Assembly: GCF_022008365.1 (NCBI RefSeq)
Contig: NZ_JAIRBA010000034.1
Coordinates: forward strand, 1-37,202
Source of the DNA: Aequorivita vitellina
Lineage (GTDB): Bacteria; Bacteroidota; Bacteroidia; Flavobacteriales; Flavobacteriaceae
Length of the DNA: 37,202 nt
Reading direction: 5' to 3'
Shown in pieces: positions 5,283-33,973 of this stretch. Position 1 is the stretch's first letter; the number at the start of each line of letters is the position of its first letter. Below the pieces are notes generated by a model. It was not told where the DNA came from. It saw only the letters and a program-made list of their open reading frames with translations, and searched no databases. A program made the position numbers and the translations under genes.

Positions 5283-5294
5283 TTTAACAGTCCT

Positions 5295-8344: not shown

Positions 8345-8382
8345 ATTATTAGTTTTAAACTGGGGTTAGATTTATTATTAAA

Positions 8383-8995: not shown

Positions 8996-9038
8996 TAAAG
9001 ATAAATCTTACACACCCCTTAAATTATGACGAATGTCA
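8996..9038 (-). promoter_or_regulatory. Crp/Fnr-type activated promoter of the YceI-porin operon
   Basis: The minus-strand -7 box TATCTTTA occupies 8996-9003, a one-base variant of TAnnTTTG. A palindrome, TGACGAATGTCA, occupies 9027-9038 (TGAC-N4-GTCA). The two centres are 33 bp apart, which places the dyad near -40, as for class II Crp/Fnr activators. The same arrangement recurs at seven other promoters in the window. Confidence 0.75.
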
Positions 9039-9307
9039 GTAAAAACAGGTATTCGTACCATATTTAGAGGAAGGATATTTCGCGATTTTTCTTACATTCG
9101 GCAGCTCCTATTAACACTGCATTACCGCATTTCACGTGAAGAAGAAACGATTAAATATAGAATGTTTCTAAATTGGATATTAGCGGTTTTTATATAAAAA
9201 AATGCTTTCGCTATTTTAAAATATAATATATAGGTAAAGAAAGAAAAATGTAGCTTGAAAATTTGCGGAACGTAAATACGAGTTCAAAAGTGCGAAGTCA
9301 AAAATTA
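9039..9307. other. Non-coding stretch, no gene seen
   Basis: AT-rich DNA between the promoter of the YceI operon and the 3' end of the metallo-hydrolase gene. I see no coding frame, dyad or hairpin with a T-tract. The terminator of the long USP operon should be here but is not recognisable. Confidence 0.4.
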
Positions 9308-10678
9308 CTAAACTAAAACCTCTTTAACACTGAAAAGTTTAGGAATACTTACTTGCCATCCATAAGTTTCCTGAAGTTTTAGCCGTAAAGCATGCTGTGC
9401 TTCAGCCTCTCCGTGAATAAGAAATATTTCCTCCGGAATGTTTTTAATATTGCTGGTCCAATCTAAAAGTCCCCGCTGGTCTGCATGTGCCGAAAGACTT
9501 TCAATATGATCTATTTCAGCTTTTACTGGATGCTGTTTTCCGAAGAATTTAAGTTCCTGCGCACCTTCCAGCATTTGGCGGCCACGAGTACCTTCAGCCT
9601 GGTAGCCAACCATTAAAACCGTTGTATTGGTTTTGTCTATCATCTGTTTTAAATAGGTCAAAACCCTTCCGCCAGTCACCATTCCACTGCCGGCAATAAC
9701 CACTTTTGGTTGCGGATTATCGATAGTTTCCCAAGTTTCTTTATAAGAAGCAATAATATTCATCCGGTTATTCATCGCGTTAAATTCCTTCATTGGTATT
9801 TTATGCCAATCGGGGAAATTCTGAAATACCGAAAGCACGTTATTGCCCATCGGGCTGTCTATAAAAATTGGAATATTCGGGATTCGGTTTTCGTTGTACA
9901 ATTTCCAAAGTAAAAACATCAACGTTTGCAATCGTTCCACCGCAAAGGACGGAATTATTAAATTACCGCGATTGTGAATGGTTTTATTGATGAGTTCTAC
10001 TAATTTTTCTGAAACACTTTCCTCTGGGTGAAGTTTGTCGCCGTACGTACTTTCCATAAAGAAATAATCTGCGTGTTCAGGTTTTTCGGGTGGAAAAAGC
10101 AACAAGTCGTGCTCTCTGCCAATATCCCCCGAAAACACAAAAGTTTTTCCAAATATTTTCAGTTCAATAAAAGTGGCCCCAATAATATGCCCGTTATATC
10201 GAAACCGATATTTTATATTTTCTGAAAGTTCAATCCACTTGTCTCTTTCTTCAGATTGAAAAAATCCTAAGGTCACCTCAGCTTCTTGTAAACTATAAAA
10301 CGGCTGGGCGGGTTTGTGTTTGGAATAACCTTCTTTATTGGCTTTTTCGGCTTCTTCCTCGTGAATTTTAGCGCTGTCCAGCAATATTATTTCGGCAATT
10401 GCAAGTGTTGGTGCCGTGCCGATAATCTTTCCGCGATACCCATTTTTTACCAAGCGTGGCAAATAGCCTGTATGATCCAAATGCCCATGGGTTAATAAAA
10501 CCACGTCAATTGCCGAAACATCAATAGGCAGTTGTTCCCAGTTTTTTTCGCGAAGTTTCTTTAAACCTTGAAACATGCCACAGTCAATCAAAATATTCTG
10601 CTCCGTAGTTTCAATCAAGAATTTGGAACCTGTTACGGTTCCGGCGGCTCCGAGGAAATGGACTTTTACGTTTTGCAT
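9308..10678 (-). CDS. Beta-CASP metallo-beta-lactamase-fold hydrolase (CPSF-73/YSH1-like RNA nuclease family)
   Basis: A protein of 456 aa from the chosen start. The metal-binding motif HGHLDH is at residues 64-69, and further metal-ligand blocks follow (NGHIIGATF, FSGDIG). The beta-CASP insertion has the expected SGMVTGGRVLTYL and SLSAHADQRGLLDW motifs. Bacterial members are exo- or endoribonucleases related to CPSF-73, and many are encoded beside universal stress proteins. I place the start at MQNVKVHFLG (10678), 2 bp after the upstream stop; an alternative start at 10696 would overlap the ATP-cone gene by 16 bp. It is the last gene of the six-gene USP operon. RNA as substrate is inferred from the family. 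Confidence 0.87.
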   Translation of the reverse strand: MQNVKVHFLGAAGTVTGSKFLIETTEQNILIDCGMFQGLKKLREKNWEQLPIDVSAIDVVLLTHGHLDHTGYLPRLVKNGYRGKIIGTAPTLAIAEIILLDSAKIHEEEAEKANKEGYSKHKPAQPFYSLQEAEVTLGFFQSEERDKWIELSENIKYRFRYNGHIIGATFIELKIFGKTFVFSGDIGREHDLLLFPPEKPEHADYFFMESTYGDKLHPEESVSEKLVELINKTIHNRGNLIIPSFAVERLQTLMFLLWKLYNENRIPNIPIFIDSPMGNNVLSVFQNFPDWHKIPMKEFNAMNNRMNIIASYKETWETIDNPQPKVVIAGSGMVTGGRVLTYLKQMIDKTNTTVLMVGYQAEGTRGRQMLEGAQELKFFGKQHPVKAEIDHIESLSAHADQRGLLDWTSNIKNIPEEIFLIHGEAEAQHALRLKLQETYGWQVSIPKLFSVKEVLV

Positions 10679-10680
10679 AA

Positions 10681-11511
10681 TTACTTCTTTTGGCACAAAA
10701 TTTTTATTTCCTCTAGAATACGGGCCTTCCTGTTTTCAGAAATTGCTAAATGATCGAGGTAGAAATCATCGTTTATCAATTGTTTACAAAGCACAACATC
10801 GCGGCTGAGTAGAAACTGCTTTTCGCGCTGACTGAGCAATGTGGAAACGGTTACAGGATAAAGTCCCAGTCTATCGATGCGATCTTTAAGGCCGTTATCC
10901 TTTGGAAAATCCCAACTTAAAAGGTAAAGGCCTGCACATTTGCCATATTTTAAAGCATCTTCGGTAAAACGTGTATTTGTAACTACCCAGCCTTCGTTAG
11001 GTTTTTCAATACTTGTATTTTCACCGTAAAAATTGAGAATATCGCGATAACGGGAATGAATATACAGCGGCACTTTTACATTGCAATTTCTGCCTTCATC
11101 GCTGTGAAATTTACATTCAGCTACAATATATTCTTCAAGTTTGTGGGCAACAACATCTACTTCGTGGGTTACACATTTTCCGTTTAAAAACTGACCGGTT
11201 TGCACCTTGTACCCACTGTAAAACAACAAAGCGCCTATAAATTTTTCAAAAGGAAAACCGGTTGGTCCCAACTCGTAGATTGCTTTTTTTAACTTGTATT
11301 TAGAAGCAAAACCTTTCTTCTTCTTTTTAAGAAGCGCAAAGGCACGATTGTAAATTTCTTTGGTTGAAATACCTTGGTACAACTCATCGCGAACACTATT
11401 GGCAATTTGGTTAACCACATTTTCCTGCGCGCCACTTTTCCGAAGGGAATTTTTCAGCTTATCAATTGAAAACTTTACCCGTTCTCCGGAATATTTTACA
11501 ATCTCAACCAT
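10681..11511 (-). CDS. ATP-cone domain fused to Mrr-like PD-(D/E)XK nuclease-like domain (paralogue 2)
   Basis: A 276-aa paralogue of the protein encoded at 4440-5282, colinear over its whole length. The ATP-cone is at about 1-82 and a lysine-rich joint (LLKKKKKGFASKYK) at 60-73. The nuclease-like core has Glu89 in FPFEKFIGALL, Asp119 in HEVDVVA, and Glu132-x-Lys134 in AECKFH. All putative catalytic residues are kept in both copies, and a shared C-terminal block (LYLLSWDFPKDNGLK) is also conserved. It lies between a USP gene (12 bp) and the beta-CASP gene (2 bp) in the Fnr-box operon, so it should be made under the same conditions. A role in nucleotide-gated DNA or RNA cleavage during stress is a hypothesis. 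Confidence 0.8.
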   Translation of the reverse strand: MVEIVKYSGERVKFSIDKLKNSLRKSGAQENVVNQIANSVRDELYQGISTKEIYNRAFALLKKKKKGFASKYKLKKAIYELGPTGFPFEKFIGALLFYSGYKVQTGQFLNGKCVTHEVDVVAHKLEEYIVAECKFHSDEGRNCNVKVPLYIHSRYRDILNFYGENTSIEKPNEGWVVTNTRFTEDALKYGKCAGLYLLSWDFPKDNGLKDRIDRLGLYPVTVSTLLSQREKQFLLSRDVVLCKQLINDDFYLDHLAISENRKARILEEIKILCQKK

Positions 11512-11523
11512 TTTATTTTAAGA

Positions 11524-12375
11524 TTAATTTCTAGAATCGTGAAGTGCAAAAATTGGTACTTTGGAATGAATGCCGAGACTTTTAACTAAGGGGTTTGAAA
11601 AAATACTTCCAAAAAACCAATGCTTTCTGTTTACAAAAGCTATCATTCCACTGTTTCGTTCGTCCACAAAAGACAAGACACCTTCCTTCACCCCTGTATC
11701 CTCCAACCAGTGATAGGTATATTCTAATCCTTCAAAATAGCCTTCAATCTCTTTTCGGTTATTTCTTTGTTTTTCAGAAAGATTGGCTTCTTTTCCGATA
11801 TGTAAAATTCGGATTGGCGATTTTTCCAATTGGGCTATCTTTACGAAAATATCTATTTCGCGGGTATTAAAATGACTTTTAAAATTACTGGGGAAAACAA
11901 TTTCGTTTATTTGCTTGTACAATACATTTGCAGGAACCGCGAGCACAGCGCAAGCTCCAATATTTTCCATTACGTTTACCGAATTTCTGCCGTATGCTAC
12001 TTTAATATCGTCAGTAATACCGCGGGTTCCCATAACTATAAGGTTTATGTTTTCCTGCAACACTTTTTCCTTTAACAATTCAATAAGGGTTCCAAATTTA
12101 TGGTCGAAATAAAGGGTGTGTTTTGGGTTGTCTGCAAATTGTTCTACTTTGTTTTTTAATCGAATCATACTTTCTCCAGATGCTCTGGCCGCCTCATCAT
12201 ACTCATGGGGTTCTGGTTCGGGAAAAAGTAAATTGCCTTGGGCCGAACGCGATAAAAAGTAGGAATGAAAAATATGAAAAACACAAGCCTCGTTTTCAAA
12301 AAGTTTAAAAGCATATACGATGGCGTTAAATGCATTTTTTGAATAATCTGTGGGTATTAAAATACGTTTTTGCAT
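11524..12375 (-). CDS. Universal stress protein, two-domain (UspA family)
   Basis: A 283-aa tandem-USP protein. The N-terminal Usp domain (1-150) begins KRILIPTDYSKNAFNAIVYA and has the nucleotide-site segment VMGTRGITDD...GRNSVNVME, a variant of G-x2-G-x9-G-(S/T) in which Arg-Asn-Ser replaces Gly-Ser. The C-terminal domain (155-283) keeps the fold but not the loop. It closely resembles the next gene upstream (12460-13311), including the end IFSNPLVKSLGIHSKVPIFALHD, so it is a recent duplicate. Fourth gene of the operon, separated by 84 bp from the preceding USP gene. Confidence 0.88.
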   Translation of the reverse strand: MQKRILIPTDYSKNAFNAIVYAFKLFENEACVFHIFHSYFLSRSAQGNLLFPEPEPHEYDEAARASGESMIRLKNKVEQFADNPKHTLYFDHKFGTLIELLKEKVLQENINLIVMGTRGITDDIKVAYGRNSVNVMENIGACAVLAVPANVLYKQINEIVFPSNFKSHFNTREIDIFVKIAQLEKSPIRILHIGKEANLSEKQRNNRKEIEGYFEGLEYTYHWLEDTGVKEGVLSFVDERNSGMIAFVNRKHWFFGSIFSNPLVKSLGIHSKVPIFALHDSRN

Positions 12376-12459
12376 AATACGGTATCGCTTAAAAGATTTA
12401 TTAAGCTATTTTATGTAAATGAGATTAAAACATCCTCATTAGGTTATTGTTTAAACAAA

Positions 12460-13311
12460 TTAATTTCGCAAATCGTGCATTGCAAGCAATGGTACAGTAG
12501 TGTGCATCCCCAGTTCCTTAACCATTGGATTTGAAAAAATACTTCCAAAGAAGTTGTGCTTTTTATTTACAAATGCAATCATTTCGCTTTCGCGACTCTG
12601 CACAAAACAACGCACGCCTTCCTGCAAATCAATATCGTAAAGTTTGTGATGTGTAAATTCTGCAGCATCTAAAATTTGCTCCAAAAGTGCTTTGTTTTTT
12701 TCTTGATCTTCAGATAGTTGCTTGCCTTTTTTAACGTGTAAAATACGAATTGGCGCATTTGTTAATCGCGAAATCTCAACCAAAGTTTCCAATTCCCTTT
12801 CTTTATAATGGGTTTTAAAACTTGTGGGAAATACAATTTCGTTAGGGTCTTTATAAACTGTATTTGCCGGAATACCGAATACAGGGCAGTTTCGTATTTT
12901 CTCCATTGCGTTTACTGTGTTACTTCCCAGAATTACGGTATTGTCGTCTGTTTCGCCACGGGTTCCCATAACTACCAGTTTCACATCTTCTTGTTCAATG
13001 GTTCGCTTTAAAACATCAAAAAATGACCCAAATTCACTTCTAAATTGAAAATCGTGCTTATCGTTTTTTTCATAAAGTCCCATCTGTAATTTAAGTCTCT
13101 CCATTCTTTCTTCAGACTTATTTTTTGCGGCTTTATGAGCTTCTTCGGTGGGTTCTGGAATTAAAAAATTATCTTTTGAATATCCAGAATGGTAATAAGT
13201 ATGTAAAATTATAAATTCGCAGAACTCTCTTTTGTAAAGCTCCATTGCATATTTAACAGCATTGAAGGCATTTTTTGAAAAGTCTGTTGGAATCAAAATT
13301 CGTTTTTTCAT
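12460..13311 (-). CDS. Universal stress protein, two-domain (UspA family)
   Basis: A 283-aa cytoplasmic protein with two Usp domains. The first domain starts KKRILIPTDFSKNAFNAVKYA and has the ATP-binding-type loop VMGTRGETDDNTVILGSNTVN. The second domain is degenerate in that loop and ends with MVKELGMHTTVPLLAMHD. It is the nearest paralogue of the 11524-12375 product, and together they form a duplicated pair in the operon. Tandem USPs act as dimers or pseudo-dimers that respond to nutrient limitation, hypoxia or redox stress; the specific role of this one is unknown. Confidence 0.88.
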   Translation of the reverse strand: MKKRILIPTDFSKNAFNAVKYAMELYKREFCEFIILHTYYHSGYSKDNFLIPEPTEEAHKAAKNKSEERMERLKLQMGLYEKNDKHDFQFRSEFGSFFDVLKRTIEQEDVKLVVMGTRGETDDNTVILGSNTVNAMEKIRNCPVFGIPANTVYKDPNEIVFPTSFKTHYKERELETLVEISRLTNAPIRILHVKKGKQLSEDQEKNKALLEQILDAAEFTHHKLYDIDLQEGVRCFVQSRESEMIAFVNKKHNFFGSIFSNPMVKELGMHTTVPLLAMHDLRN

Positions 13312-13350
13312 AATTTATTTTTTAAATTATTGTTACTTGTTTGCACTAAG

Positions 13351-14202
13351 CTACAAATTTTTCATTGGAATAACCATTGTAGGAACGTGCGTATGCTTTC
13401 CAACTCTACTTACCACCGGCTCCCGAAAGAGTTGCTTTAAAAATGCATGCTTGTGATACACCAAAGCCAAAAGATCTAAATTGTTTTTATCGACAAAGGC
13501 GTGAAGCGATTTTGAAATGGTTGCCATTTTGGGAATAAAATGAAATTCGGTATCGTATTCTGTAAGGTCATTTCTGTATTGTTCTAAGTTTTGTTGTTGC
13601 CCAGCATCCATTTCCTTCTCTGTACCAACGTGCACAATATGCAAGTTTGAATTATATTGCCGTACCAAGCGAACAATGGGTCGTAATTTTGAAAGTTGAT
13701 AAAAATCGTTGTAATCTGTTGCAAAGGCAATGTTTGTGGGTATTACAAAATCTACTTCGCGCGGAATGATGAGCAGCGGGCAACCCTCTAAAGATTTGGT
13801 AATGGCAACAGTAGTGCTACCCATTAAAACGTCTTCGGCCCCTGTACGGCCTTTGCTACCCATGACAACTAAATTAAACCCTTCTGTAGCTACCAATTCA
13901 TTAATAGATTTTGCTAAACTTGCGGGCGTAGAAATTACTTCAAACTTGTGCGCTATTTTTGTAGCGTCTAATTTAATTTTATGAACTAACTTTTCGCCAT
14001 CCTCATCAGATTGTTGGTACAGTTTTTCAATTATCACGTCTGATCGACCAATATCTACGCGACTCGTAAGCTTGCCTATTTCGTCACTAAAGGAATGTAA
14101 AATGGTTATCTGCAATGCTTCATCGCTAAAAAGTTTTGTAGCGTAGAATAAGGCGGCATAAGCGTTATTAGAAAAATCGGTAGGAACAAGTATTTTTTTC
14201 AT
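13351..14202 (-). CDS. Universal stress protein, two-domain (UspA family)
   Basis: A 283-aa tandem-USP. It has the best-preserved nucleotide loop of the cluster, VVMGSKGRTGAEDVLMGSTT (G-x2-G-x9-G-S-T-T), so ATP binding is plausible. The N-terminus begins KKILVPTDFSNNAYAALFYA. The C-terminal domain (about 155-283) ends GKHTHVPTMVIPM. It is more distant from the other three operon copies than they are from one another. It lies 20 bp after the first USP gene and 39 bp before the next. Confidence 0.88.
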   Translation of the reverse strand: MKKILVPTDFSNNAYAALFYATKLFSDEALQITILHSFSDEIGKLTSRVDIGRSDVIIEKLYQQSDEDGEKLVHKIKLDATKIAHKFEVISTPASLAKSINELVATEGFNLVVMGSKGRTGAEDVLMGSTTVAITKSLEGCPLLIIPREVDFVIPTNIAFATDYNDFYQLSKLRPIVRLVRQYNSNLHIVHVGTEKEMDAGQQQNLEQYRNDLTEYDTEFHFIPKMATISKSLHAFVDKNNLDLLALVYHKHAFLKQLFREPVVSRVGKHTHVPTMVIPMKNL

Positions 14203-14222
14203 ATAAAAATGATTTTTAAAGA

Positions 14223-15068
14223 TTATCTCGGTAAATTTTGAAGTACTAAAAAAGGAATATCAATATGCAATCCTATTTTTTCGATAGTAGATTGATATAA
14301 AATATTTTCTAAATACGAATGGCGCGTATTTATCATAACCAGCATATCTATTGGGTTTTCCACGATAAATGTGTTTATGGCTTTGGTAACATCGGTGTTG
14401 TATTCTTGTTTAAAATCAACTTTATTTTCTGAAAATGTGGCTTCCAGAAAATTCTTGTTATCCTGCTGTCGCAAAGACAATGTTGGAAATTTAGAGACGT
14501 AAAGAAAATCTACTTTTGAAGCAAAGCATCTTGCAATCGTGCTTACCAGTTTTAATTCGCGTCTTTTGTACGGCAAAAGAAAATCTGTTGGAAACAGCAA
14601 GTTTTTTGGATGAACATCTTCATAAACCGCAGGTATGGCCAGTACAGGACATTTTACATATTTAATAACTTGCAGTGTATTGCTACCAAAAGTTAATTTT
14701 GTATCGGCCGTTTTGCCTTTTGTACCCATAACCACTACATCTATATTTTCCTTTTCTACCCAATTGTTTGTTGCATCTACCAACAATCCAAATTCAGAAA
14801 TAGTATGTATTGTATGTTTTGGGTTTGGCGAAAATTCAATAACTTTTTTACGTAGCTCGGCTAGTTCATGTTCCGCTCTCTCACGTGTTTTTTGTTGAAG
14901 CTCATTAAAAATTTCATCGGCCAATCGTGCTTTTGCTTCATAAACCTCGTCGGCAAATGCGTGAAGCAAATATATTTCGGCAGGATTATGTTTAAATAAT
15001 TCCGTGGCGTATTTAATTGCGTTTAACGAATTTTCAGAAAAATCGGTGGGCATTAAAATTTTTTGCAT
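14223..15068 (-). CDS. Universal stress protein, two-domain (UspA family), first gene of the stress operon
   Basis: A 281-aa protein beginning QKILMPTDFSENSLNAIKYA, with the loop VVMGTKGKTADTKLTFGSNTLQ and a second, degenerate Usp domain. It heads the operon 15068 to 9308: four USPs, the ATP-cone nuclease-like protein and the beta-CASP hydrolase. Its promoter at 15094-15137 has a near-perfect Fnr box, so low oxygen or a related redox cue is the likely inducer. The leader is about 20 nt and has no strong Shine-Dalgarno sequence. Confidence 0.89.
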   Translation of the reverse strand: MQKILMPTDFSENSLNAIKYATELFKHNPAEIYLLHAFADEVYEAKARLADEIFNELQQKTRERAEHELAELRKKVIEFSPNPKHTIHTISEFGLLVDATNNWVEKENIDVVVMGTKGKTADTKLTFGSNTLQVIKYVKCPVLAIPAVYEDVHPKNLLFPTDFLLPYKRRELKLVSTIARCFASKVDFLYVSKFPTLSLRQQDNKNFLEATFSENKVDFKQEYNTDVTKAINTFIVENPIDMLVMINTRHSYLENILYQSTIEKIGLHIDIPFLVLQNLPR

Positions 15069-15093
15069 GAAAACATATTTAGGTTCAACTACG

Positions 15094-15137
15094 TAAAGAT
15101 AGCGATTACAAGACAGTTAAAATATGATAATTATCAA
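15094..15137 (-). promoter_or_regulatory. Fnr-box promoter of the six-gene USP operon
   Basis: A dyad, ATGATAATTATCAA, at 15124-15137 matches the Fnr consensus TTGAT-N4-ATCAA at all but one position. The minus-strand -7 box TATCTTTA is at 15094-15101, identical to that of the YceI operon. Centre-to-centre distance is 33 bp, which is class II geometry. Confidence 0.82.
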
Positions 15138-15182
15138 CGAATTAAACCTTATTTAGTGAATTCTTAAGAAAATAAGCTTCCC

Positions 15183-15190
15183 TAATTTTG
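15183..15190 (+). promoter_or_regulatory. Possible -7 element of the small membrane protein gene
   Basis: TAATTTTG fits the Bacteroidota -7 consensus TAnnTTTG and lies 20 bp before the ATG at 15211. No clear -33 TTG is seen, and the Fnr box upstream is 56 bp away (centre to centre), so it is not in class II position for this gene. Confidence 0.4.
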
Positions 15191-15210
15191 TAACTTGTAA
15201 ATAAAAAAGA

Positions 15211-15444
15211 ATGAAAACTTCTTCTGTAACATATTTAATAATACTCACGTTATTGCTCGTTACGGTTACCATTTTTGCAGCGCTGGATTTTGCCTTTGGA
15301 GTGATATTTTACCTCACCGTAGTGGGCCAGGTAGCATTAGTTTTTGTTGTTGTAAAGGTTTTAAAAGACAACTATACTACAAACAAAACCTTTGGAGATT
15401 TTTATGAAGATTTCCCCATTGAAAAAGAGGATAGATTACACTAA
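15211..15444 (+). CDS. Small two-helix membrane protein, unknown function
   Basis: A 77-aa protein with two adjacent membrane segments (about 7-26 and 30-51), followed by a soluble acidic tail ending FGDFYEDFPIEKEDRLH. I do not recognise a family. It is transcribed divergently from the USP operon and convergently with the next USP gene, inside the stress block. The shared intergenic region may place it under the same regulator, but the box spacing does not show this. Confidence 0.65.
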   Translation: MKTSSVTYLIILTLLLVTVTIFAALDFAFGVIFYLTVVGQVALVFVVVKVLKDNYTTNKTFGDFYEDFPIEKEDRLH

Positions 15445-15490
15445 ATACTTTTTTTTTACAAACCAATTTTTGCGAAATTTTAGGCCAAAA

Positions 15491-16324
15491 TTATTCGTGT
15501 AGTATTAAAAAGGGCACTTCGTACGGGTAAGATATTGCCAAATTAATTCGCTTAAAAAGAAGACGTTGGGTTAGGTTTAAATTTTTTGCAACTACTGCAA
15601 TCATATCTATTTCCCAAGTTTCAACAAAATCTTGCACTCCAGCTTCAATATTTTTATTATCTAAAAAATGGAAACTGTGTTTTATATCTTTAAAGAAATA
15701 ATGCAAAAAGCCTTTGTTATCTGTTTGCGCCGCGTTAAGCATAGCATTTTGAGAGCGAATATGAAGTACTCTCAGCGCGGCTTTTTGTAGTTTAAGTGCC
15801 TCTGAAAGACCGCTAATAACTTTGTTTCGGTAAATACAGTTGTAATCTGTTAAAAATGAAATATTCGTTATATTTTTAAATCGCGCGTTTTCTGGAATTA
15901 CAAATATTGGGCATTTCACTTTGGTAATTACTTCGCTGGTATTGCTTCCTATTTCGTGTCTATTTTCTTTAGAAGCCCCTTTTGTGCCCATTAAAATATA
16001 ATCAATCTCTTTTTCGGCAACTTGTTTCCGAATTGCTTCCACCAAAAGCGCCTTTTCGTATATGGCAAAAAACTGATGGCCCGTATTTTTAGCCAGCAGT
16101 TTAAAGGTTTTTATTTCTTCTGTCAAACCTGCCATAGATCCTTGAATTGTATTATTTTTCGTTGTTGTTTCAAAAAATAATTCAGGTTCTTCATTATGCG
16201 AAGCTTGATTGCGCGCAGTGTGAAGTAGATAAAAATTCACAGGAATGTCTGCGAAATAATCCAAAGCATACCGAATGGCATTATGTGAATTTTCGGAGAA
16301 ATCCGTTGGAATTAATACGTTCAT
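15491..16324 (-). CDS. Universal stress protein, two-domain (UspA family), monocistronic
   Basis: A 277-aa tandem-USP beginning NVLIPTDFSENSHNAIRYAL, with the loop LMGTKGASKENRHEIGSNTS in the first domain and a degenerate second domain ending YPYEVPFLILHE. Unlike the operon copies it has its own promoter with an Fnr-type dyad (16347-16389). It is flanked by a convergent small gene and by the response-regulator gene, whose transcript runs in the same direction from further upstream. Confidence 0.88.
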   Translation of the reverse strand: MNVLIPTDFSENSHNAIRYALDYFADIPVNFYLLHTARNQASHNEEPELFFETTTKNNTIQGSMAGLTEEIKTFKLLAKNTGHQFFAIYEKALLVEAIRKQVAEKEIDYILMGTKGASKENRHEIGSNTSEVITKVKCPIFVIPENARFKNITNISFLTDYNCIYRNKVISGLSEALKLQKAALRVLHIRSQNAMLNAAQTDNKGFLHYFFKDIKHSFHFLDNKNIEAGVQDFVETWEIDMIAVVAKNLNLTQRLLFKRINLAISYPYEVPFLILHE

Positions 16325-16346
16325 CTTTATATCTAATTAATACTGA

Positions 16347-16389
16347 CAAATGTATCTGAAAGTGTAAGTATAGAAAATGATATAAATCA
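16347..16389 (-). promoter_or_regulatory. Fnr-type promoter of the solo USP gene
   Basis: The dyad TGATATAAATCA (TGAT-N4-ATCA) is at 16378-16389. The minus-strand -7 box TACATTTG, a full match to TAnnTTTG, is at 16347-16354. The centres are 33 bp apart. The start codon follows after a leader of roughly 20 nt. Confidence 0.82.
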
Positions 16390-16451
16390 GTTTTAAAAAT
16401 ACGGTAACAAAACGGAAGGTTTATATATGGTTTTGCTACGTTAACCGGCTA

Positions 16452-17504
16452 TTAATCAATATTGCGCAAGCTTTCTAAATCTATAATTCGAATATCGCGA
16501 CCTTCAATTTCAATAAGCCCATCTCTTTTAAAGTCTGAAAGTGTTCTTATTAAACTTTCGGTTGCAATTCCGGCTGTAGTTGCCAGATCGTTACGCGAAA
16601 TTTTAAGTGGCGATTCTGGCCGTTTGTTCATTACCTCAACAAACTGTAGGATGGTATTTGCCGTTTTTTTACGTACCGAGCTGTATGCCATTTTAACGAG
16701 TTGCAGTTTAATTTCAGAAAGATTGTCGCTAAGCAGGTTCATCATTTCTAAGGAAACATCTTGGCTTTTCTTCAAAACATCTTTTACATACGTTTTTGAA
16801 ATAGCAGCTACTTCGGTTTCTTCAACCGCCGTAGCAGTTTCGGTATATGGAATATTATCGTCAAAAGAACTGAAGCCCAAAAAATCATCTGCCTTATAAA
16901 GCCCCGTAATCAATTCTTTGGCATTGTAGTCCATTGTATGTGTTTTAACCACACCTTTTAATATAAGAAACATATTATTGGAGTGATCGCCATTTTGATA
17001 TATCGCTTCTCCTTTTTTGTATTTGCTTATTTCGCCTTCGTCGTAAAAGTAATTTTTTAATTGGTGTAGGTTTTGTAAAATCTCTTCATCATCAACTGCA
17101 GCAACTGGGTTGTTATTGGCTCGCATTGATAAAATAGTAGCTTTAGCCAACCTACTTTCCACCGCACTAATTAGCTCGGTTTCGTCAAAAGGTTTGGTTA
17201 GGTAGTCGTCGGCACCCATATCCATTCCTTTTCGTATTTCTTTGTGTTCGGTTTTTGCCGATAGAAAAATAAACGGAATATGCTTGGTTTTTTCTTCCGA
17301 AGCAACACTTTCAAGCACCCCGTAGCCATCTATTTCGGGCATCATTATATCGCAAACAATTATATCTGGAATTTCGGTTTTGGCTTTTTCAATACCAATT
17401 TTGCCATTTGCTGCCGTAAAAACCTTGAAACCTGAAAGTTCCAATAATTCGGCCGTGTTTTCTCTAAGTGCTATATCGTCTTCAATAAGAAGTATTGTCT
17501 TCAT
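16452..17504 (-). CDS. Response regulator with Crp/Fnr output: REC + cNMP-binding-like + HTH_Crp
   Basis: A 350-aa cytoplasmic transcription factor. The receiver domain (1-122) has the acidic pair Asp9/Asp10, phosphoacceptor Asp52 in VCDIMMPEIDGYG, and the Lys of LTKPFDE. A cNMP-binding-like beta-roll follows at about 150-265 (FLILKGVVKTH). A Crp-type winged helix-turn-helix is at about 270-345, with ISRNDLATTAGIATESLIRT. Its recognition helix keeps the Glu-x3-Arg pair that reads the TGA core in Crp/Fnr proteins. No N-terminal Fe-S cysteine cluster is present, so input should be phosphorylation. It lies one base after the PAS kinase gene and is its obvious partner. It is the best candidate in the window for binding the TGAY-N4-RTCA sites, but this is inferred. 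Confidence 0.9.
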   Translation of the reverse strand: MKTILLIEDDIALRENTAELLELSGFKVFTAANGKIGIEKAKTEIPDIIVCDIMMPEIDGYGVLESVASEEKTKHIPFIFLSAKTEHKEIRKGMDMGADDYLTKPFDETELISAVESRLAKATILSMRANNNPVAAVDDEEILQNLHQLKNYFYDEGEISKYKKGEAIYQNGDHSNNMFLILKGVVKTHTMDYNAKELITGLYKADDFLGFSSFDDNIPYTETATAVEETEVAAISKTYVKDVLKKSQDVSLEMMNLLSDNLSEIKLQLVKMAYSSVRKKTANTILQFVEVMNKRPESPLKISRNDLATTAGIATESLIRTLSDFKRDGLIEIEGRDIRIIDLESLRNID

Positions 17505-17505
17505 A

Positions 17506-18741
17506 TTAATTGGGTTTATTATTTATGGGGAATGTAATCGTAAATTTGCTGCCTTTGCCCTCTTCGCTCTCAAAGCTAATGGTGCCTCCCAGGCTTTCTA
17601 AATGGCTTTTTACAATATTTAAACCAATGCCCGTGCCTTGATTGAGCAGTGCATTTTCGGCGCGAAAATACCTGTTAAAAATATATTTCTGCTCCTTTTC
17701 TGGAATGCCCATTCCTTCGTCAATTATTTCAATATTGAGCAAATCGTCTTTGGGAATTACCACCACATCTATCTTCGTAAATTCCGGCGAGTACTTTATG
17801 GAGTTATTAATTAAATTGGTAAGTGACAATTCCAGGATTTTTTCATCAAAATTGACCATAATATCGTCAATATTGTTTGGGTAACTTATGCGTTGGCCAT
17901 CTTTTAAAAGCATGTTTGAATTATAGATCACCTCGTTAACAACCTTGCTCAACGGGAAGGTGTCAAATTTATAGGTGGCCTTGCCAGACTCCAAACGTTC
18001 TATAGACAAAAAATCGTTGAGAATATTGTTCAAGTATTTAACTTTACTTTGAATGGTTTTTAAATGCTTTTCGCGTTTATCCTGTTGCGTTGTTTCGGTG
18101 TATTTTCCCGCCAAAGTTGCCGAAGTAAGGATACCGCTCAATGGCGTTTTGAACTCATGCGATACGAGCGATAAAAACTTGGTTTTTAATTCACCTAATT
18201 CGCGCTCTTTACGGAGCGACTCCTTTATTTTGTGTTCGGCTTCCTGCCGTTTTGTAACTTCTTCTTCTAGTTCAATGATAGTCTGTTTCAACTCTTTGGT
18301 GCGCGCCTCAATTTTATGCTCCAGTTGCGAGTTAAGCTCCACTATTTGCCGCTCTTGACTTTTGCGTACCGTAATATCGGTTACCAAAGCCATTACGTAT
18401 CGGCTGCCGTTAATTTCAAAAGGGTTGAGTCCCGCTTCTACGGGAAAGGTACTACCATCTTTTCGGCGTCCGTAGAGGTCGCGACCGTGTCCCATCTGCC
18501 GCGGATCCCGCTTTACCATAAATTGATCTACTTGCTCATGGTGACTGCTATGATATTCTCGAGGAATTAATATATTGAGATTTTCGCCCAGCAACTCTTC
18601 TGCTTCATAACCAAACATTCTATCTGCCGCTTCATTTGAAGTAACAATTTCTTGAATTTCATTTACAATTACTATCCCTTCTGAAATTGATTCAGAAAGA
18701 ATTTTGAAAATATTACCTTTCTTTTCTTCAAAAACCTTCAT
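17506..18741 (-). CDS. PAS-domain sensor histidine kinase, possibly FixL-like
   Basis: A 411-aa protein with no membrane segment. The PAS/PAC domain spans 10-125, a coiled coil 128-183, and HisKA has His195 in LVSHEFKTPLSGI. The HATPase_c domain includes NLINNSIKYSPE, DEGMGIPEKEQ and GTGIGLNIVKSHL. The PAS domain aligns without gaps to the region of FixL (from memory of the Bradyrhizobium sequence) that carries the haem ligand. Here His67, in REYHSSHHEQ, falls at the ligand position, and Arg87 at the position of the O2-sensing Arg in the G-R motif. Many non-haem PAS domains share this His, so oxygen sensing is only a candidate role. Its operon partner is the REC-Crp protein. Confidence 0.88.
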   Translation of the reverse strand: MKVFEEKKGNIFKILSESISEGIVIVNEIQEIVTSNEAADRMFGYEAEELLGENLNILIPREYHSSHHEQVDQFMVKRDPRQMGHGRDLYGRRKDGSTFPVEAGLNPFEINGSRYVMALVTDITVRKSQERQIVELNSQLEHKIEARTKELKQTIIELEEEVTKRQEAEHKIKESLRKERELGELKTKFLSLVSHEFKTPLSGILTSATLAGKYTETTQQDKREKHLKTIQSKVKYLNNILNDFLSIERLESGKATYKFDTFPLSKVVNEVIYNSNMLLKDGQRISYPNNIDDIMVNFDEKILELSLTNLINNSIKYSPEFTKIDVVVIPKDDLLNIEIIDEGMGIPEKEQKYIFNRYFRAENALLNQGTGIGLNIVKSHLESLGGTISFESEEGKGSKFTITFPINNKPN

Positions 18742-18778
18742 TGCCCAAAAGTAACTAATTTAAACAGTTTTCTTGAAC

Positions 18779-18821
18779 TGATTATTATCATAAAAATTCA
18801 AAATAAATCAATTTAGATTTA
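18779..18821 (+). promoter_or_regulatory. Fnr-type dyad and -7 box before the TerB-like gene, shared intergenic region with the kinase
   Basis: The dyad TGATTATTATCA is at 18779-18790. On the plus strand a -7-like box TAGATTTA is at 18814-18821, 33 bp centre to centre, as at the other sites. On the minus strand TACTTTTG at 18746-18753 fits TAnnTTTG, but at 35 bp and almost on the kinase start codon. The plus-strand gene is therefore the better target, and the kinase-regulator pair may be autoregulated from the same dyad. Confidence 0.65.
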
Positions 18822-18843
18822 CAACGTAAAAAATATTAATAAT

Positions 18844-19248
18844 ATGGAGAATGTGAATAAACCACAACTGCTGTTTTATCAAAAAATGGGCGAGTTATTT
18901 TATGCAATTGCAGCTGCAGATAATGTAGTGCGAAAGACCGAATACGACGCCTTAAAAAATATTGTTACCGAAAAGTGGAAGGATCTTGACGATTACGAAG
19001 ACCCTTTTCATACCGATGCTGCCTATCAAATAGAAGTAGTTTTTGATTGGTTTGATTACGAACAACTTGATGCAAATGACTGCTTTGACAGTTTTGCCGA
19101 TTATAAAAAGGAAAATCCGAAGCTTTTTACAACAGAAAGAAAAAAGCTAATTTGGGAAACCGCAGACGCAATTGCAAGCTCTTTTGCAGGTAAAAACAAA
19201 AGCGAATTGATAATGCTGGCAAAACTAAAAATGCTATTAAAAGAATAA
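18844..19248 (+). CDS. TerB-like helical protein, putative
   Basis: A 134-aa, all-helical, acidic cytoplasmic protein. The opening helices LFYAIAAADNVVRKTEYDALKNIV resemble the TerB/DjlA-type metal-binding fold, where an acidic A-x-A-D-G-x-V-x-x-x-E motif is typical. Here the residues are AAADNVVRKTE. The resemblance is partial and the assignment tentative. It is transcribed divergently from the PAS kinase and has an Fnr-type promoter at 18779-18821, so it is likely part of the stress regulon. The next gene follows after 68 bp. Confidence 0.6.
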   Translation: MENVNKPQLLFYQKMGELFYAIAAADNVVRKTEYDALKNIVTEKWKDLDDYEDPFHTDAAYQIEVVFDWFDYEQLDANDCFDSFADYKKENPKLFTTERKKLIWETADAIASSFAGKNKSELIMLAKLKMLLKE

Positions 19249-19316
19249 CAAAGCACAATTCCTTTTTTTCGCAAATGTTCTTTCCCTATTTTTAGGGTCT
19301 AAAACCACAAAAAAAT

Positions 19317-20186
19317 ATGAAATTTTTTCTGCCAATTTTAATTTTCTTCACTTTAATTGCCTGCAAAAACGATCCAAAAAAAGATGAAGTAGATACTTCA
19401 GCTCCACTCAGTAACCAAGAGGAAATTATAGACTCTTTGCAGGTTTCAGACGAAAATTTAGAGCAACAGCAAAAAACGCTTATTTTAAAACGAAAGGAAC
19501 TGCTCGAGAAAAAAGATTCGAAAGAAGAACTCGAAAACCTACTTGTTTCAAAAGAATTTATAAAAGAAGGTGATTTATATATCCTCGATTTTAAATACCC
19601 ATACCTCAACGAAAAAATTAAACCACAGTTTGAAACTTTCAACGCGTATATAAGCGAGCATTTTCTCGATGCTAAAGATGTAGAAAAACAAATTTTAGAA
19701 GAACAAAGACTGTGCGACTCCATGGGAATTGCCAGAACCACCGAAAAACGATTTGTAGATTATAAAATTTACAATTTAAACGACAGGCTAATAAGTGTGC
19801 TGTTTTATAAAGAAAATCATTACACTGGTGCCGCCCACGCTTCCTACACTTTTGAATGTTTAAACTTTGATTTGGAGCGAAATGTATTTATGAATTACGA
19901 AGATTTTTTTAATGATGGCACTGAAGAAGAACTTCGCGAAATTTTAAATACACATCTAAAACAAAAAATTAACGCCGGAGAGATATACTACGATTGTTGG
20001 GCAATCGCTGCAGACGATTTTTTTAATGCCAAAAATAACTTTGTAATAAACGACACCGTAGTAGAGTTTTACTTTGACGATTGCGTAATCTGCCCGTCGT
20101 ACACAGGCACCTACTCTATCGAAATTCCTTTAAAAATACTTCAACCTGTTTTACGAAAAACCAAAAAGAATCCGTTGCTACTTTAA
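19317..20186 (+). CDS. Lipoprotein with DUF3298/RsiV-like domain
   Basis: A 289-aa protein with a lipoprotein signal (LIACKND, lipidated Cys about residue 17), then a charged, Gln/Glu-rich coiled-coil linker (about 35-75). The C-terminal domain (about 85-285) contains NHYTGAAHASYTFECLNFDL, the Y-x-G-G-A-H-type block of DUF3298/RsiV proteins. In RsiV this domain binds lysozyme; in Bacteroidota the function is unknown. Near the end two Cys flank CVICPS. A CCCTA-TTTT-TAGGG hairpin or promoter-like stretch lies at 19284-19297. Confidence 0.72.
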   Translation: MKFFLPILIFFTLIACKNDPKKDEVDTSAPLSNQEEIIDSLQVSDENLEQQQKTLILKRKELLEKKDSKEELENLLVSKEFIKEGDLYILDFKYPYLNEKIKPQFETFNAYISEHFLDAKDVEKQILEEQRLCDSMGIARTTEKRFVDYKIYNLNDRLISVLFYKENHYTGAAHASYTFECLNFDLERNVFMNYEDFFNDGTEEELREILNTHLKQKINAGEIYYDCWAIAADDFFNAKNNFVINDTVVEFYFDDCVICPSYTGTYSIEIPLKILQPVLRKTKKNPLLL

Positions 20187-20234
20187 GTTGCAAATTAAAA
20201 TTACAAGTGGTATTTTAGGTTTAAAATAATTTAT

Positions 20235-20537
20235 ATGAAAAGTAATTTTAACAACATTATAAATTCTGAAACCCCTGTATTAGTCGATTTCTTTGCAGAT
20301 TGGTGCGGACCGTGCAAAATGCTCGCACCCATATTAAAACAAGTAAAGGACGATTTGGGCGAAGATGTAAAAATTGTAAAGATAGACGTTGACAAAAATC
20401 AACCGTTGGCTTCAGTGTACCAAGTGCGCGGCGTTCCAACCATGATTTTATTTAAAAACGGAAAGCAGCTTTGGCGTCAAAGTGGAGTGTTGCAAAAAGA
20501 CGAAATAATTTCAATAATAAAACAACACGTTACTTAA
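20235..20537 (+). CDS. Thioredoxin
   Basis: A 100-aa single-domain cytoplasmic thioredoxin with the active site WCGPC (Cys24 and Cys27) and the cis-Pro loop RGVPTM. Length and motifs are those of a functional disulfide reductase. A box TAGGTTTA at 20216-20223 could be its -7 element. Its stop codon overlaps the deoC start by one base (TAATG), an unusual coupling of thioredoxin with deoxynucleoside catabolism. Confidence 0.93.
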   Translation: MKSNFNNIINSETPVLVDFFADWCGPCKMLAPILKQVKDDLGEDVKIVKIDVDKNQPLASVYQVRGVPTMILFKNGKQLWRQSGVLQKDEIISIIKQHVT

Positions 20538-21208
20538 TGAAGCTTAGCCAATATATAGATCACACCCTCTTAAAGCCTACCGCCACTCCAGAAGATATAA
20601 TTAAACTTTGTGAGGAAGCCAAAGAGTATAATTTTTATGCTGTTTGTGTAAATAGTTGTTACGCAATTTTGGCTGCCGATGAATTACAGAACAGCAAGGT
20701 AAAACTAGCTGCGGTAGTAGGTTTTCCTTTGGGTGCCGATAGTATTGAAGCTAAGGTAAGCGCAGCAAAAATTTGTATTGAAGATGGTGCAGATGAAATT
20801 GACATGGTGATTAATATTGGTTATTTAAAAGGAGAATTGTACGATATCGTTCAATATGAAATTACGTCCGTAAAAAAAGCAATTGGCAAAAAAAAGCTGA
20901 AAGTCATCTTGGAAACCTGTTATTTAACAGATGCTGAAATAAGAAAAGCTTGCCAATTATGCAAGAAAGCCAAAGCAGATTTTGTAAAAACCTCAACGGG
21001 TTTTGGGTCTGCAGGTGCAACGGAAGAAGCTGTAAAAATAATGATTGAAGAAGTTGGAAGCACATTAAAAATAAAAGCTTCGGGGGGAATTAGAGATACT
21101 GCAACCGCAAAAAAATATATTGAATTAGGAGTGAGCAGAATTGGAACTTCTTCAGGAATTGAAATAATTTCCTCCACAAAAAACAACCGCGATGAGCACA
21201 CATATTGA
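20537..21208 (+). CDS. deoC: Deoxyribose-phosphate aldolase
   Basis: A 223-aa class I aldolase that splits 2-deoxyribose 5-phosphate into glyceraldehyde 3-phosphate and acetaldehyde. It starts [20 protein letters not shown], the standard DeoC N-terminus. The Schiff-base Lys lies in FVKTSTGFG, and a second active-site Lys in [10 protein letters not shown] chose the ATG at 20537, which overlaps the thioredoxin stop, over an in-frame upstream ATG at 20471 inside thioredoxin, because the family begins here. It overlaps deoD by 17 bp. DeoD and DeoC are linked steps in salvage of deoxynucleosides as carbon source. Confidence 0.93.
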
Positions 21209-21893
21209 AGCCAAACCTGGCGAAATAGCAGAATCGGTTCTCCTTCCCGGAGACCCAATACGGGCAAAATGGATTGCGGAAACTTTTCTCGAAAATGCAA
21301 AATGTTACAACGAAGTTCGCGGGATGTTGGGTTATACTGGCACCTTCCGAGGAAAGCCAATTTCGGTGCAAGGAACAGGAATGGGCATTCCTTCTGCCCT
21401 AATTTATTGCCACGAACTTATAAACGATTACGGAGTTAAAAACCTTATTCGCGTAGGTTCTGCGGGTTCGTATCAAAAAGACATCAACCTGCGCGACATT
21501 GTAATTGCAATGGCAGCATCTTCCAATTCTGGTATTAACAACACCCGTTTTGTAAACAGCGACTACTCCCCCACTGCCGACTTCGATTTGTTTATGAAAG
21601 CCGCGCTTTACGCAAAAGAAAACAACATTGCTATTAAAGCTGGAAACGTACTTTCCAGCGATCAGTTTTATGAAGACGACTTCAATAATTATAAAAAATG
21701 GGCCGCGTTTGGTGTGCTTTGCGTAGAAATGGAAGCCGCAGGACTGTACACAATTGCAGCAAAATTTAAAGTAAAAGCCTTGGCCATTTTAACCATTTCC
21801 GATTCGTTGGTAACTGGCGAAACCACAACCGCCGATGAACGCGAAGGCAGCTTTTCAAAAATGATTGAGATTGCGCTGAATACGGTACTTTAA
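21192..21893 (+). CDS. deoD: Purine-nucleoside phosphorylase, DeoD type
   Basis: A 233-aa enzyme of the hexameric DeoD family. It phosphorolyses purine (deoxy)nucleosides to base and (deoxy)ribose 1-phosphate. Visible motifs are the phosphate-binding [14 protein letters not shown], the RVGSAGSY loop, VEMEAAGLY for ribose binding, and ISDSLVTGE, which carries the catalytic Asp. The start at 21192 lies inside the end of deoC (17-bp overlap), giving tight coupling. A phosphopentomutase would be needed between the two steps but is not in the window. A bidirectional terminator follows at 21898-21935. Confidence 0.94.
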
Positions 21894-21897
21894 TATA

Positions 21898-21935
21898 AAA
21901 AGCAGGAACTCTACTAAATAGAGATTCCTGCTTTT
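21898..21935. terminator. Bidirectional rho-independent terminator between deoD and the convergent USP gene
   Basis: AAAAGCAGGAA (21898-21908) pairs with TTCCTGCTTTT (21925-21935). An inner CTCT/AGAG extends the stem, closing on a short AT loop. The A and T tracts at the ends let it act in both directions, which fits the convergent genes on each side. Confidence 0.9.
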
Positions 21936-21964
21936 AAACGTTAATTGTTGTCGATAGCAATTAA

Positions 21965-22801
21965 CTATACCCTAAAGGTCATCACCGGTAAATCGGAATG
22001 ATTTACCACGTCCTCGCCGATACTTCCGGAGAAGAAATGCGCCAAACCTTGGCGACCTTGCGTTGGTAAAGCAATAATATCGGCACCTGTAAGTTGACTG
22101 TATGCAAAGATTCCAGCTTCAACCGAATAATCGTTATACTGCACAACAGCATTTAAACTCTCTAACGGATTGGGATCTTTAGCTTCGTTCATAAAAGTTA
22201 AAATACGCTTTTCAATTTCTCGTGTATTTCGGAAATCGCCCGCAAGGTTTACATAAAGCGGCTGCATTTTAATTCCTAAAATTTCAAACATCCTTTTCGC
22301 TTTTTTGTAAGGTTCTATTGAATTCGGCAAAAAATCGCACGCAAAAACGCCAAGTTGCGGATTAAATTCCGTTGTTTGGTGTTTAATAACCAAGACAGGA
22401 ATTTCAGAAGTACGCACCACTTTTTCAGTATTTGAGCCTACAAAAACTTCTCTAAACCCAGTAGTTCCGTGGGATCCCATAACAATTAAGTCTATTTCCA
22501 TTTCTTTGGCAATATCATTAATTTCGCTGAAAATAGTGTAGTTGTGTACTGTATCGGTTACTGTTATTCCTTTCAAATAATCTTTATCTAAAAATTCTGC
22601 AAATCGCGTTTCTGCCAAGCGCATGTAGTACATTGCCTCAAAAACTTCCTTTGATTGATTGCGGGTTACAACTGCATCGGAAAGCCCCATCATATGCAAA
22701 GCCACTATTTCGGCATTTTGCTTTTTTGCAATTGAAGCCGCTACTTCCATAGCGTGTTCAGAATGTTTGGAAAAATCTACGGGAACTAATATTTTTTTCA
22801 T
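21965..22801 (-). CDS. Universal stress protein, two-domain (UspA family)
   Basis: A 278-aa tandem-USP. Domain 1 begins KKILVPVDFSKHSEHAMEVA and has the loop VMGSHGTTGFREVFVGSNTE. Domain 2 (about 150-278) keeps its own Gly-rich end (LPTQGRQGLAHFFSGSIGED), so both domains may bind nucleotide, unlike the operon USPs at 11524-15068. It lies 11 bp after the hibernation factor gene, and both share the Fnr-type promoter at 23138-23180. The pairing suggests a joint role in translational shut-down under stress. Confidence 0.9.
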   Translation of the reverse strand: MKKILVPVDFSKHSEHAMEVAASIAKKQNAEIVALHMMGLSDAVVTRNQSKEVFEAMYYMRLAETRFAEFLDKDYLKGITVTDTVHNYTIFSEINDIAKEMEIDLIVMGSHGTTGFREVFVGSNTEKVVRTSEIPVLVIKHQTTEFNPQLGVFACDFLPNSIEPYKKAKRMFEILGIKMQPLYVNLAGDFRNTREIEKRILTFMNEAKDPNPLESLNAVVQYNDYSVEAGIFAYSQLTGADIIALPTQGRQGLAHFFSGSIGEDVVNHSDLPVMTFRV

Positions 22802-22812
22802 GGTGGTTTTAT

Positions 22813-23112
22813 TTAATGAGTTGCGAATTTCGCTTTTCGTTTTTTAAGTTGTTTTTCCAAGTCAGATATCGTTTCTTTTGCCGCAGCCTCAAAGCTCGCT
22901 TCTTTTGAAGTTGCGAAGATTTTTGGCCCCGGAAGGCTCAGTTCCATTTCGCAAATATTGCCTTTGCCGTAAACGTTGTTTTCAAGTTTAAAGCTCACAT
23001 CGGCTCTAATTATCCATTCGTATTTTTCAGCAATTTTCTGAAGTTTTTGTTCTACAAATTCGTTCATTGCCTCGCTGGTGGGCATTTTTACGTATTGAAT
23101 GTTTATAGTCAT
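22813..23112 (-). CDS. hpf: Ribosome hibernation promoting factor, short form (HPF/RaiA)
   Basis: A 99-aa protein with the S30AE/sigma-54 modulation fold: MTINIQYVKMPTSEAMNEFV at the start, a central beta strand pair, and a helix with a basic tail (LEKQLKKRKAKFATH). The length is that of short HPF or RaiA, which bind the 30S subunit at the decoding region and inactivate ribosomes. The C-terminal dimerisation domain of long HPF is absent. First gene of a two-gene operon with a USP. Its -7 box and dyad (23138-23180) have the same geometry as the USP promoters. Confidence 0.88.
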   Translation of the reverse strand: MTINIQYVKMPTSEAMNEFVEQKLQKIAEKYEWIIRADVSFKLENNVYGKGNICEMELSLPGPKIFATSKEASFEAAAKETISDLEKQLKKRKAKFATH

Positions 23113-23137
23113 AATATTCTGAATTGGTTATTATATT

Positions 23138-23180
23138 CAAATATAACTCTTATTGATCGCTTTTGAAATGACCGATATCA
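23138..23180 (-). promoter_or_regulatory. Crp/Fnr-type promoter of the HPF-USP operon
   Basis: The dyad TGACCGATATCA (TGAC-N4-ATCA, a hybrid of the two half-site forms) is at 23169-23180. The minus-strand -7 box TATATTTG, a full TAnnTTTG match, is at 23138-23145. Centres are 33 bp apart. The leader to the HPF start is about 22 nt. Confidence 0.75.
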
Positions 23181-33970: not shown

Positions 33971-33973
33971 ATT

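Follow-up and report, generated by a model that had tools for sequence, protein, structure and literature searches.

A fixed-spacing dyad–box element in Aequorivita vitellina and a receiver–Crp-type protein as its probable reader

Which protein reads an inverted repeat that stands at one exact distance from the promoter box in front of five genes or gene runs, and to what end, is the question raised by a 37,202-nt stretch of Aequorivita vitellina DNA (assembly GCF_022008365.1, contig NZ_JAIRBA010000034.1, positions 1-37,202, forward strand), referred to here as the window. The genome comprises 3.63 Mb in 197 contigs. A preliminary description of the window had reported Fnr-like TGAY-N4-RTCA dyads centred 33 bp from TAnnTTTR boxes and proposed a local stress regulon. 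Computation on the window, the genome and its relatives established the composite element, its spacing, its targets and its co-occurrence with two regulators. A protein encoded in the window, in which a receiver domain is joined to a Crp-type DNA-binding module (REC-CRP), is probably the reader of this element and of the low-oxygen regulon that it appears to mark. All five dyads and boxes were found in the window sequence at the coordinates first reported for them, as follows.

8996..9038, minus strand: composite element with dyad TGACATTCGTCA at 9027-9038, a 23-bp gap and box TATCTTTA at 8996-9003; it precedes the YceI gene 8383-8973 and the gene 7049-8344 for a protein of 431 amino acids (aa), the start codon lying about 23 bp from the box.
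15094..15136, minus strand: composite element with dyad TGATAATTATCA at 15125-15136 and box TATCTTTA at 15094-15101, before the six-gene run 15068-9308.
16347..16389, minus strand: composite element with dyad TGATTTATATCA at 16378-16389 and box TACATTTG at 16347-16354, before a solo universal stress protein (USP) gene, 15491-16324.
18779..18821, plus strand: composite element with dyad TGATTATTATCA at 18779-18790 and box TAGATTTA at 18814-18821, before the gene 18844-19248 for a 134-aa protein.
23138..23180, minus strand: composite element with dyad TGATATCGGTCA at 23169-23180 and box TATATTTG at 23138-23145, before the HPF gene 22813-23112 and a USP gene, 21965-22801.

The window contains seven TGAY-N4-RTCA dyads, five of which have a TAnnTTTR box at a gap of 23 bp, equivalent to 33 bp centre to centre; every other gap from 0 to 79 occurred at most once among the dyad-box pairs, and the two dyads without a box (20390 and 32537) are inside open reading frames (ORFs). 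In 400 dinucleotide shuffles of the window, which served as the chance control, the mean count at gap 23 was 0.0025, the highest count for a gap in the range 0-59 was 2, and five at any single gap was never reached. A separate chance estimate gave 0.01 expected gap-23 pairs in the window. The proposed fixed spacing is therefore upheld. Allowing up to two mismatches yielded two further, weak sites in the window against 1.3 expected by chance in all, and a search for sigma-70-type promoters in 15000-19300 found 17 against 13.6 expected.

Related loci were collected by one contig scan in which 313 relatives were confirmed, and the best 80 loci (1.51 Mb in total; Aequorivita, Aquimarina, Lacinutrix, Dokdonia, Arenibacter, Maribacter, Mesonia and others) were used. 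These loci contained 535 dyads and 401 gap-23 pairs, the latter in 76 of the 80 loci, and the reversed sequence, our control for counts in relatives and whole genomes, contained no such pair. The other gaps from 0 to 99 averaged 2.7 pairs, the next largest count being 19 at gap 25. Kinship among the 80 loci means that the 401 pairs cannot be treated as independent events. The scan of relatives suggested in the preliminary description thus came out in its favour. The density around REC-CRP, 401 elements in 1.51 Mb, compares with 20 in the whole 3.63-Mb A. vitellina genome. Over the 401 pairs, the dyad consensus was (C/A)TGAY-N4-RTCAT. The box-side outer base at position +12, which is outside the search pattern, was T in 98%, where FNR has A, and the far outer base was C in 57%, A in 30% and T in 9% (C or A in 87%). 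Hence the label Fnr-like fits the TGA-N6-TCA core of the dyad and does not extend to the canonical FNR box TTGAT-N4-ATCAA, from which the outer bases differ. The Bacteroidota housekeeping promoter has a TAnnTTTG box at -7 and TTG at -33. In the 401 pairs, where the -7 box is present by selection, the region between dyad and box was rich in T beyond the dyad, one position carried G in 23%, and no clear -33 TTG was seen. An ATG-started ORF was found within 300 bp in 375 of the 401 cases, and 15-40 bp from the box in 318. The first genes behind these 375 elements encode USPs (159), homologues of the 134-aa window protein (52), HPF (31), DUF3298 proteins (16) and matches to other reference proteins (14); 103 had no assignment, including a group of 15 with a CcoS-like appearance. 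Beyond the loci, the reversed pattern gave 0.33 elements per genome against 4.9 for the true pattern over 296 genomes, and about 0.1 against 11.7 over 149 family genomes, 132 of which hold the element.

The genome-wide scan of A. vitellina returned 30 dyad-box pairs at gaps 10-38, and 20 of them were at gap 23; the reversed pattern gave 20 pairs over the same gaps, with one at gap 23. By the stricter pattern used for the family comparison the genome holds 12 elements, and 20 by the looser one. Eighteen of the 20 are in front of a gene. The start codon lies 18-30 bp past the end of the box in 15 and at 84 bp in one; in two, the called ORF starts at the box itself and an ATG follows closely. Of the remaining two elements, one is within an oppositely oriented 369-aa ORF and the other in the early part of a 145-aa ORF. 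The sites are thus concentrated at one gap and upstream of genes, and the random scatter that would have told against the preliminary description was not seen; the regulon stands, the word local does not, since about 20 promoters are distributed over the genome. Targets outside the window include genes for a VIT-family transporter, proline dehydrogenase, a USP, a DoxX-like protein, Pta, HemN, a pyridine-nucleotide-disulphide oxidoreductase, a short-chain dehydrogenase, an outer-membrane efflux protein, and a CoA-ligase family protein that reads as an ADP-forming acyl-CoA synthetase. Further targets are a cytochrome c gene and, behind it, genes for fasciclin and a Sec-dependent NosZ (we take this NosZ to be of clade II), a second cytochrome c gene with a COX1-family gene behind it, whose product reads as NorB-like, and a 69-aa ORF, CcoS-like by reading, with ccoNO of the cbb3 oxidase. 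At one place (G000:C66:26322-26475) two elements stand back to back, with the CoA-ligase family gene on one side and the cytochrome c/COX1-family cluster on the other. With cbb3 oxidase, hemN, nosZ and Pta among the targets, the low-oxygen content is stronger than had been proposed, and the set resembles a microaerobic and nitrous oxide (N2O) respiration regulon, not a stress regulon alone.

The genes of two candidate signalling proteins lie among the window sites, although they were absent from the finding reported earlier. They and the promoter box assigned to them are listed here.

16452..17504, minus strand: REC-CRP, the proposed reader, 350 aa, with a receiver domain, a cNMP_binding beta-roll and HTH_Crp.
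17506..18741, minus strand: PAS-HisKA-HATPase_c kinase of 411 aa, encoded one base upstream of REC-CRP, its PAS domain closest to the heme-PAS domains of FixL and DosP in the PDB.
18746..18753, minus strand: box TACTTTTG of the kinase side, separated by a gap of 25 bp from the shared dyad (18779-18790) and ending 4 nt before the kinase ATG.

REC-CRP matched the Crp/Fnr superfamily domains PF00027 (4.1e-16) and PF13545 (3.6e-13). Residue conservation was counted over 81 REC-CRP sequences. The features expected of a response regulator are all present in the sequence, namely an Asp pair (D9, D10) and the putative phospho-acceptor Asp52, each conserved in 80 of 81 with one gap, and S/T82 and K104 in 81 of 81. 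In the recognition helix, E316, I319 and R320 were conserved in all 81; the helix reads GIATESLIRTLS in the window protein and GTATESAIRVLS in the stand-alone FNR-like protein of relatives, and a common form, ATES(L/A)IR, would explain why the two could share an operator. The cyclic-nucleotide pocket is marked by Gly-Glu and Arg-Ser/Thr. These residues were absent from all 81 sequences, which have F/Y/L/I at 211 and E/D at 222, and control of REC-CRP by a cyclic nucleotide was rejected on this ground. The window protein has a single cysteine (Cys51) and lacks the N-terminal cysteine cluster that holds 4Fe-4S in FNR. With one cysteine and no such pocket, the input to REC-CRP should therefore be phosphorylation. 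Among the best 25 of 104 and of 87 NCBIfam matches for REC-CRP and the kinase, respectively, none was above cut-off. For a Flavobacteriales Crp/Fnr protein, MalR-like carbon sensing has been predicted (PMC8510549).

To assign the element to a regulator, 149 family genomes, about one per genus, were compared using the stricter pattern. The mean number of elements per genome was 20.5 where both REC-CRP and the FNR-like protein are present (n = 46), 13.2 with REC-CRP only (n = 31, minimum 3; A. vitellina belongs here), 7.5 with FNR only (n = 50, one with zero) and 0.63 with neither (n = 19, zero in 15); three intermediate genomes averaged 1.0, and the reversed control of the groups ranged from 0 to 0.11. 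Some of the genomes with neither regulator are small, and the eight of at least 3 Mb hold 0, 0, 0, 2, 0, 0, 6 and 0 elements. A class-wide comparison with the looser pattern, in which REC-CRP was scored and FNR was not, gave 6.96 elements per REC-CRP genome (143 genomes) against 2.93 in those without it (151), and 6.26 against 2.70 outside the order of A. vitellina. The A. vitellina genome contains no close match to the stand-alone FNR-like protein, the best having E 1.3e-25, within the range of cross-matches to REC-CRP, and canonical FNR was ruled out as the reader here. REC-CRP is therefore the likely reader in this genome.

The kinase gene adjoins that of REC-CRP in 77 of the 80 loci when longer ORF overlaps are allowed and in 68 by a stricter rule. 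The best PDB matches of its PAS domain were DosP and FixL (6e-18 to 1e-17). Over 69 kinases, the residue aligned with the heme His of FixL was H in 67 and that aligned with the GIGR Arg was R in 57; the sole well-aligned paralogous PAS domain of the A. vitellina genome, a control of one judged by eye, has Asn at the His position. Heme binding and oxygen sensing by the kinase are thus likely, and for the heme sensor step taken alone we hold the chances to be somewhat better than even.

The kinase gene also has a promoter candidate of its own. Dyad 18779-18790 faces this gene as well as that of the 134-aa protein, a point unmentioned in the preliminary description. The kinase start accounts for every one of the 19 gap-25 pairs found in the 80 loci and for 8 of the 10 gap-24 pairs. 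Among 75 related kinases, the distance from the end of the box to an in-frame ATG is exactly 4 nt in 41; a box 3-6 nt before some in-frame start is present in 51 and missing in 24. The region 18741-18790 is probably the promoter of the kinase/REC-CRP operon, and its transcript would be leaderless, because a box centred at -7 ends only 4 nt before the ATG.

In at least eight of the 46 genomes with both regulators, REC-CRP and fnr are 970-999 bp apart, and the order kinase, REC-CRP, element, usp, fnr was found in all four of these genomes that were fetched. The element occupying the place of 16347-16389 thus precedes usp-fnr in four relatives; in the window usp is kept, and no fnr follows the solo USP gene 15491-16324. 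Aequorivita appears to lack this FNR. A passage of PMC7888657 describes FixK and FnrN of R. leguminosarum as sharing an anaerobox, with an hFixL-FxkR-FixK arm that induces fnrN; the REC-CRP/usp-fnr arrangement would match this logic with one step fewer.

The scheme that we infer from these data comprises DNA binding, phosphorylation, heme and oxygen sensing, and activation rather than repression. The five window promoters would be part of a low-oxygen regulon that extends over the genome and numbers about 20 promoters; in each, a Bacteroidota -7 box is accompanied by a dyad whose centre lies about 40 bp before the inferred start. The FixL-like PAS kinase would sense low oxygen and phosphorylate the receiver domain of REC-CRP, whose Crp-type domain would then bind the dyad as a dimer and recruit RNA polymerase from the class II position, for which a dyad centre near -41.5 is expected. 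Under its control would come the cbb3 oxidase, heme synthesis that needs no oxygen, respiration of N2O, the metabolism of acetate, and USPs and HPF as a dormancy set. In relatives with both regulators, REC-CRP may be the earlier to act, with FNR replacing it as oxygen falls further, since the same element can precede usp-fnr there. A more detailed version, to which we give slightly less than an even chance, has a FixJ receiver and a FixK activator united in one protein and gated directly by a heme-PAS kinase through phosphorylation. This protein would form a first stage that turns on usp-fnr, with FNR as a second stage reading the same operators when oxygen is lower; Aequorivita would have lost the second stage, and the regulator operon would use a conserved leaderless promoter with its operator shifted by 1-2 bp for feedback.

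Several observations weigh against REC-CRP as reader and the kinase as oxygen sensor. The element also occurs without REC-CRP: it is held by 49 of the 50 genomes with FNR and no REC-CRP and by four of the 19 with neither regulator (1, 2, 3 and 6 elements). Class-wide genomes without REC-CRP hold 443 elements against 44 for the reversed control, a tenfold difference in a comparison where FNR was not scored, and the excess in REC-CRP genomes is only 2.4-fold. The rank tests, family and class-wide alike, overstate significance because the genomes are related. The fraction of C at the outer base was 0.48 with REC-CRP only, 0.36 with both and 0.32 with FNR only, a weak separation, and the distribution of other Crp/Fnr paralogues across genomes was traced for one of them, C33. 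As for the sensor, the residue aligned with Arg206 of FixL is R in only 2 of the 69 kinases, and the AlphaFold model of the kinase (mean predicted local distance difference test, pLDDT, 76) falls below 50 at residues 65-87 around His67. A clean division of operators between REC-CRP and FNR by the outer base was considered and set aside, only a weak trend being seen.

Another Crp/Fnr paralogue (C33, C116 or C197) could read the element, with REC-CRP as a mere neighbour. The A. vitellina genome does have three further Crp-type helix-turn-helix (HTH) matches, the recognition helix of C33 is similar (VETVIR), and one family genome (G403) with two C33-type paralogues, and by our thresholds neither REC-CRP nor FNR, carries six elements. 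However, C33 was rejected as a necessary reader, as 18 of the 31 genomes with REC-CRP and without FNR lack a C33 orthologue (no match below 1e-17), although each of them holds 6-35 elements; C116, judged by eye, has Val where the other helices have Glu, and elements crowd REC-CRP in 76 of 80 loci, a count made at REC-CRP loci only. We regard a paralogous reader as improbable. That the dyad is a repressor operator seems more improbable still: a fixed place beside the box would suit occlusion too, and the kinase-side spacing is 24-25 and not 23, yet a centre lying 33 bp before the -7 box places the site in an activator position, the lack of a clear -33 TTG is what activator-dependent promoters would show, and low oxygen usually induces cbb3 and hemN.

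The sensor step is the part for which an alternative has most room. The kinase could respond to nitric oxide, redox state, the quinone pool or energy state instead of to oxygen via heme, given that PAS domains bind many ligands, that Arg206 of FixL is not conserved and that nosZ is among the targets. Against this, the closest solved relatives are oxygen sensors, the heme His is retained where the one paralogous PAS domain has Asn, and cbb3, hemN and Pta are usual low-oxygen targets; another signal is, for this step, possible but rather unlikely. Both patterns of the element are short and AT-rich, so that a compositional artefact of AT-rich promoters has also to be considered. Its probability is negligible in view of the shuffles, the reversed controls in 296 and 149 genomes, and the nearly invariant T at +12. 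REC-CRP as the reader of a low-oxygen regulon accordingly remains the reading that we prefer.

The putative target genes in the window are the following.

7049..8973, minus strand: YceI-domain protein and 431-aa protein, the porin label being unconfirmed for the latter.
9308..15068, minus strand: putative target operon; four of its genes encode USPs, one a beta-CASP metallo-hydrolase and one an ATP-cone protein whose Mrr-like match is weak.
15491..16324, minus strand: solo USP; when the USP encoded between REC-CRP and fnr in four relatives was compared with the reference proteins, this one matched best.
18844..19248, plus strand: 134-aa protein without a Pfam or NCBIfam match.
21965..23112, minus strand: HPF, a ribosome hibernation factor, and a USP.

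Some of the names first given to these genes require revision. In the pair called YceI-porin, YceI was recovered, and the product of 7049-8344 had no Pfam match and a single weak NCBIfam porin match far below cut-off. The six-gene USP operon does have six genes, only four of them for USPs, the others encoding the ATP-cone protein and the beta-CASP hydrolase. The TerB-like label of 18844-19248 found no backing in Pfam or NCBIfam. The beta-CASP hydrolase at the end of the operon (9308-10696) was closest in NCBIfam to the type VII CRISPR Cas14 model (E 3.8e-121), at 405 of the 800 bits of the cut-off and hence far below it, followed by the aCPSF1 model. Elsewhere in the window, a Pycsar-effector-like protein (PycTM; 5295-5867) adjoins a protein with Mrr-type nuclease and ATP-cone matches (4440-5282), and the pair at 4440-5867 is a possible anti-phage element. 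A consecutive row at 33572-36457, comprising DoxX, a gene without assignment, a DsrE-like gene and a gene with a 5′-nucleotidase C-terminal domain, is suggestive of sulfur metabolism.

In a full-text literature search judged by title and the start of the abstract, no description of the element or of REC-CRP was recognised, nor one of the way in which Bacteroidota pass to microaerobic respiration and the reduction of N2O. A regulator pair, an operator of exact fixed spacing and a target list from one genome make that question directly testable. They also suggest a signalling cascade shortened by the fusion of two steps, and two oxygen regulators acting on one operator.

Among known systems, FixL-FixJ-FixK of rhizobia is similar in having a FixL-like PAS kinase, a receiver and a Crp/Fnr-type activator before cbb3 oxidase, and also in that an FNR-like partner apparently reads the same box and is placed under it (compare the passage in PMC7888657). 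It differs in that here the receiver and the Crp-type activator are one protein, with no separate LuxR-type FixJ and no transcription step between, and in that the operator is (C/A)TGAY-N4-RTCAT rather than TTGAT-N4-ATCAA and is paired with a Bacteroidota promoter box. FNR, Anr and FnrL share the TGA-N6-TCA core, the class II-like place and overlapping targets; the predicted alpha-proteobacterial core FNR regulon, in the part of PMC2908626 concerned, lists a USP and an oxygen-independent coproporphyrinogen oxidase. In contrast to these proteins, REC-CRP has no N-terminal cysteine cluster, and the cysteine-bearing stand-alone FNR-like protein has no close match in this genome. CRP resembles REC-CRP in its beta-roll, its Crp HTH and the Glu and Arg of its recognition helix, whereas REC-CRP lacks the cyclic-nucleotide pocket residues and has an added receiver. 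The CRP operator, TGTGA-N6-TCACA, is also different from that of the element. The DosR regulon of mycobacteria places USPs and dormancy functions under two-component low-oxygen control, as we propose here, with a LuxR-type HTH as the DosR output in place of the Crp-type output of REC-CRP. On the features compared, the best reading is that the REC-CRP system would work like FixL-FixK and yet fall outside FNR, CRP and FixLJ-FixK.

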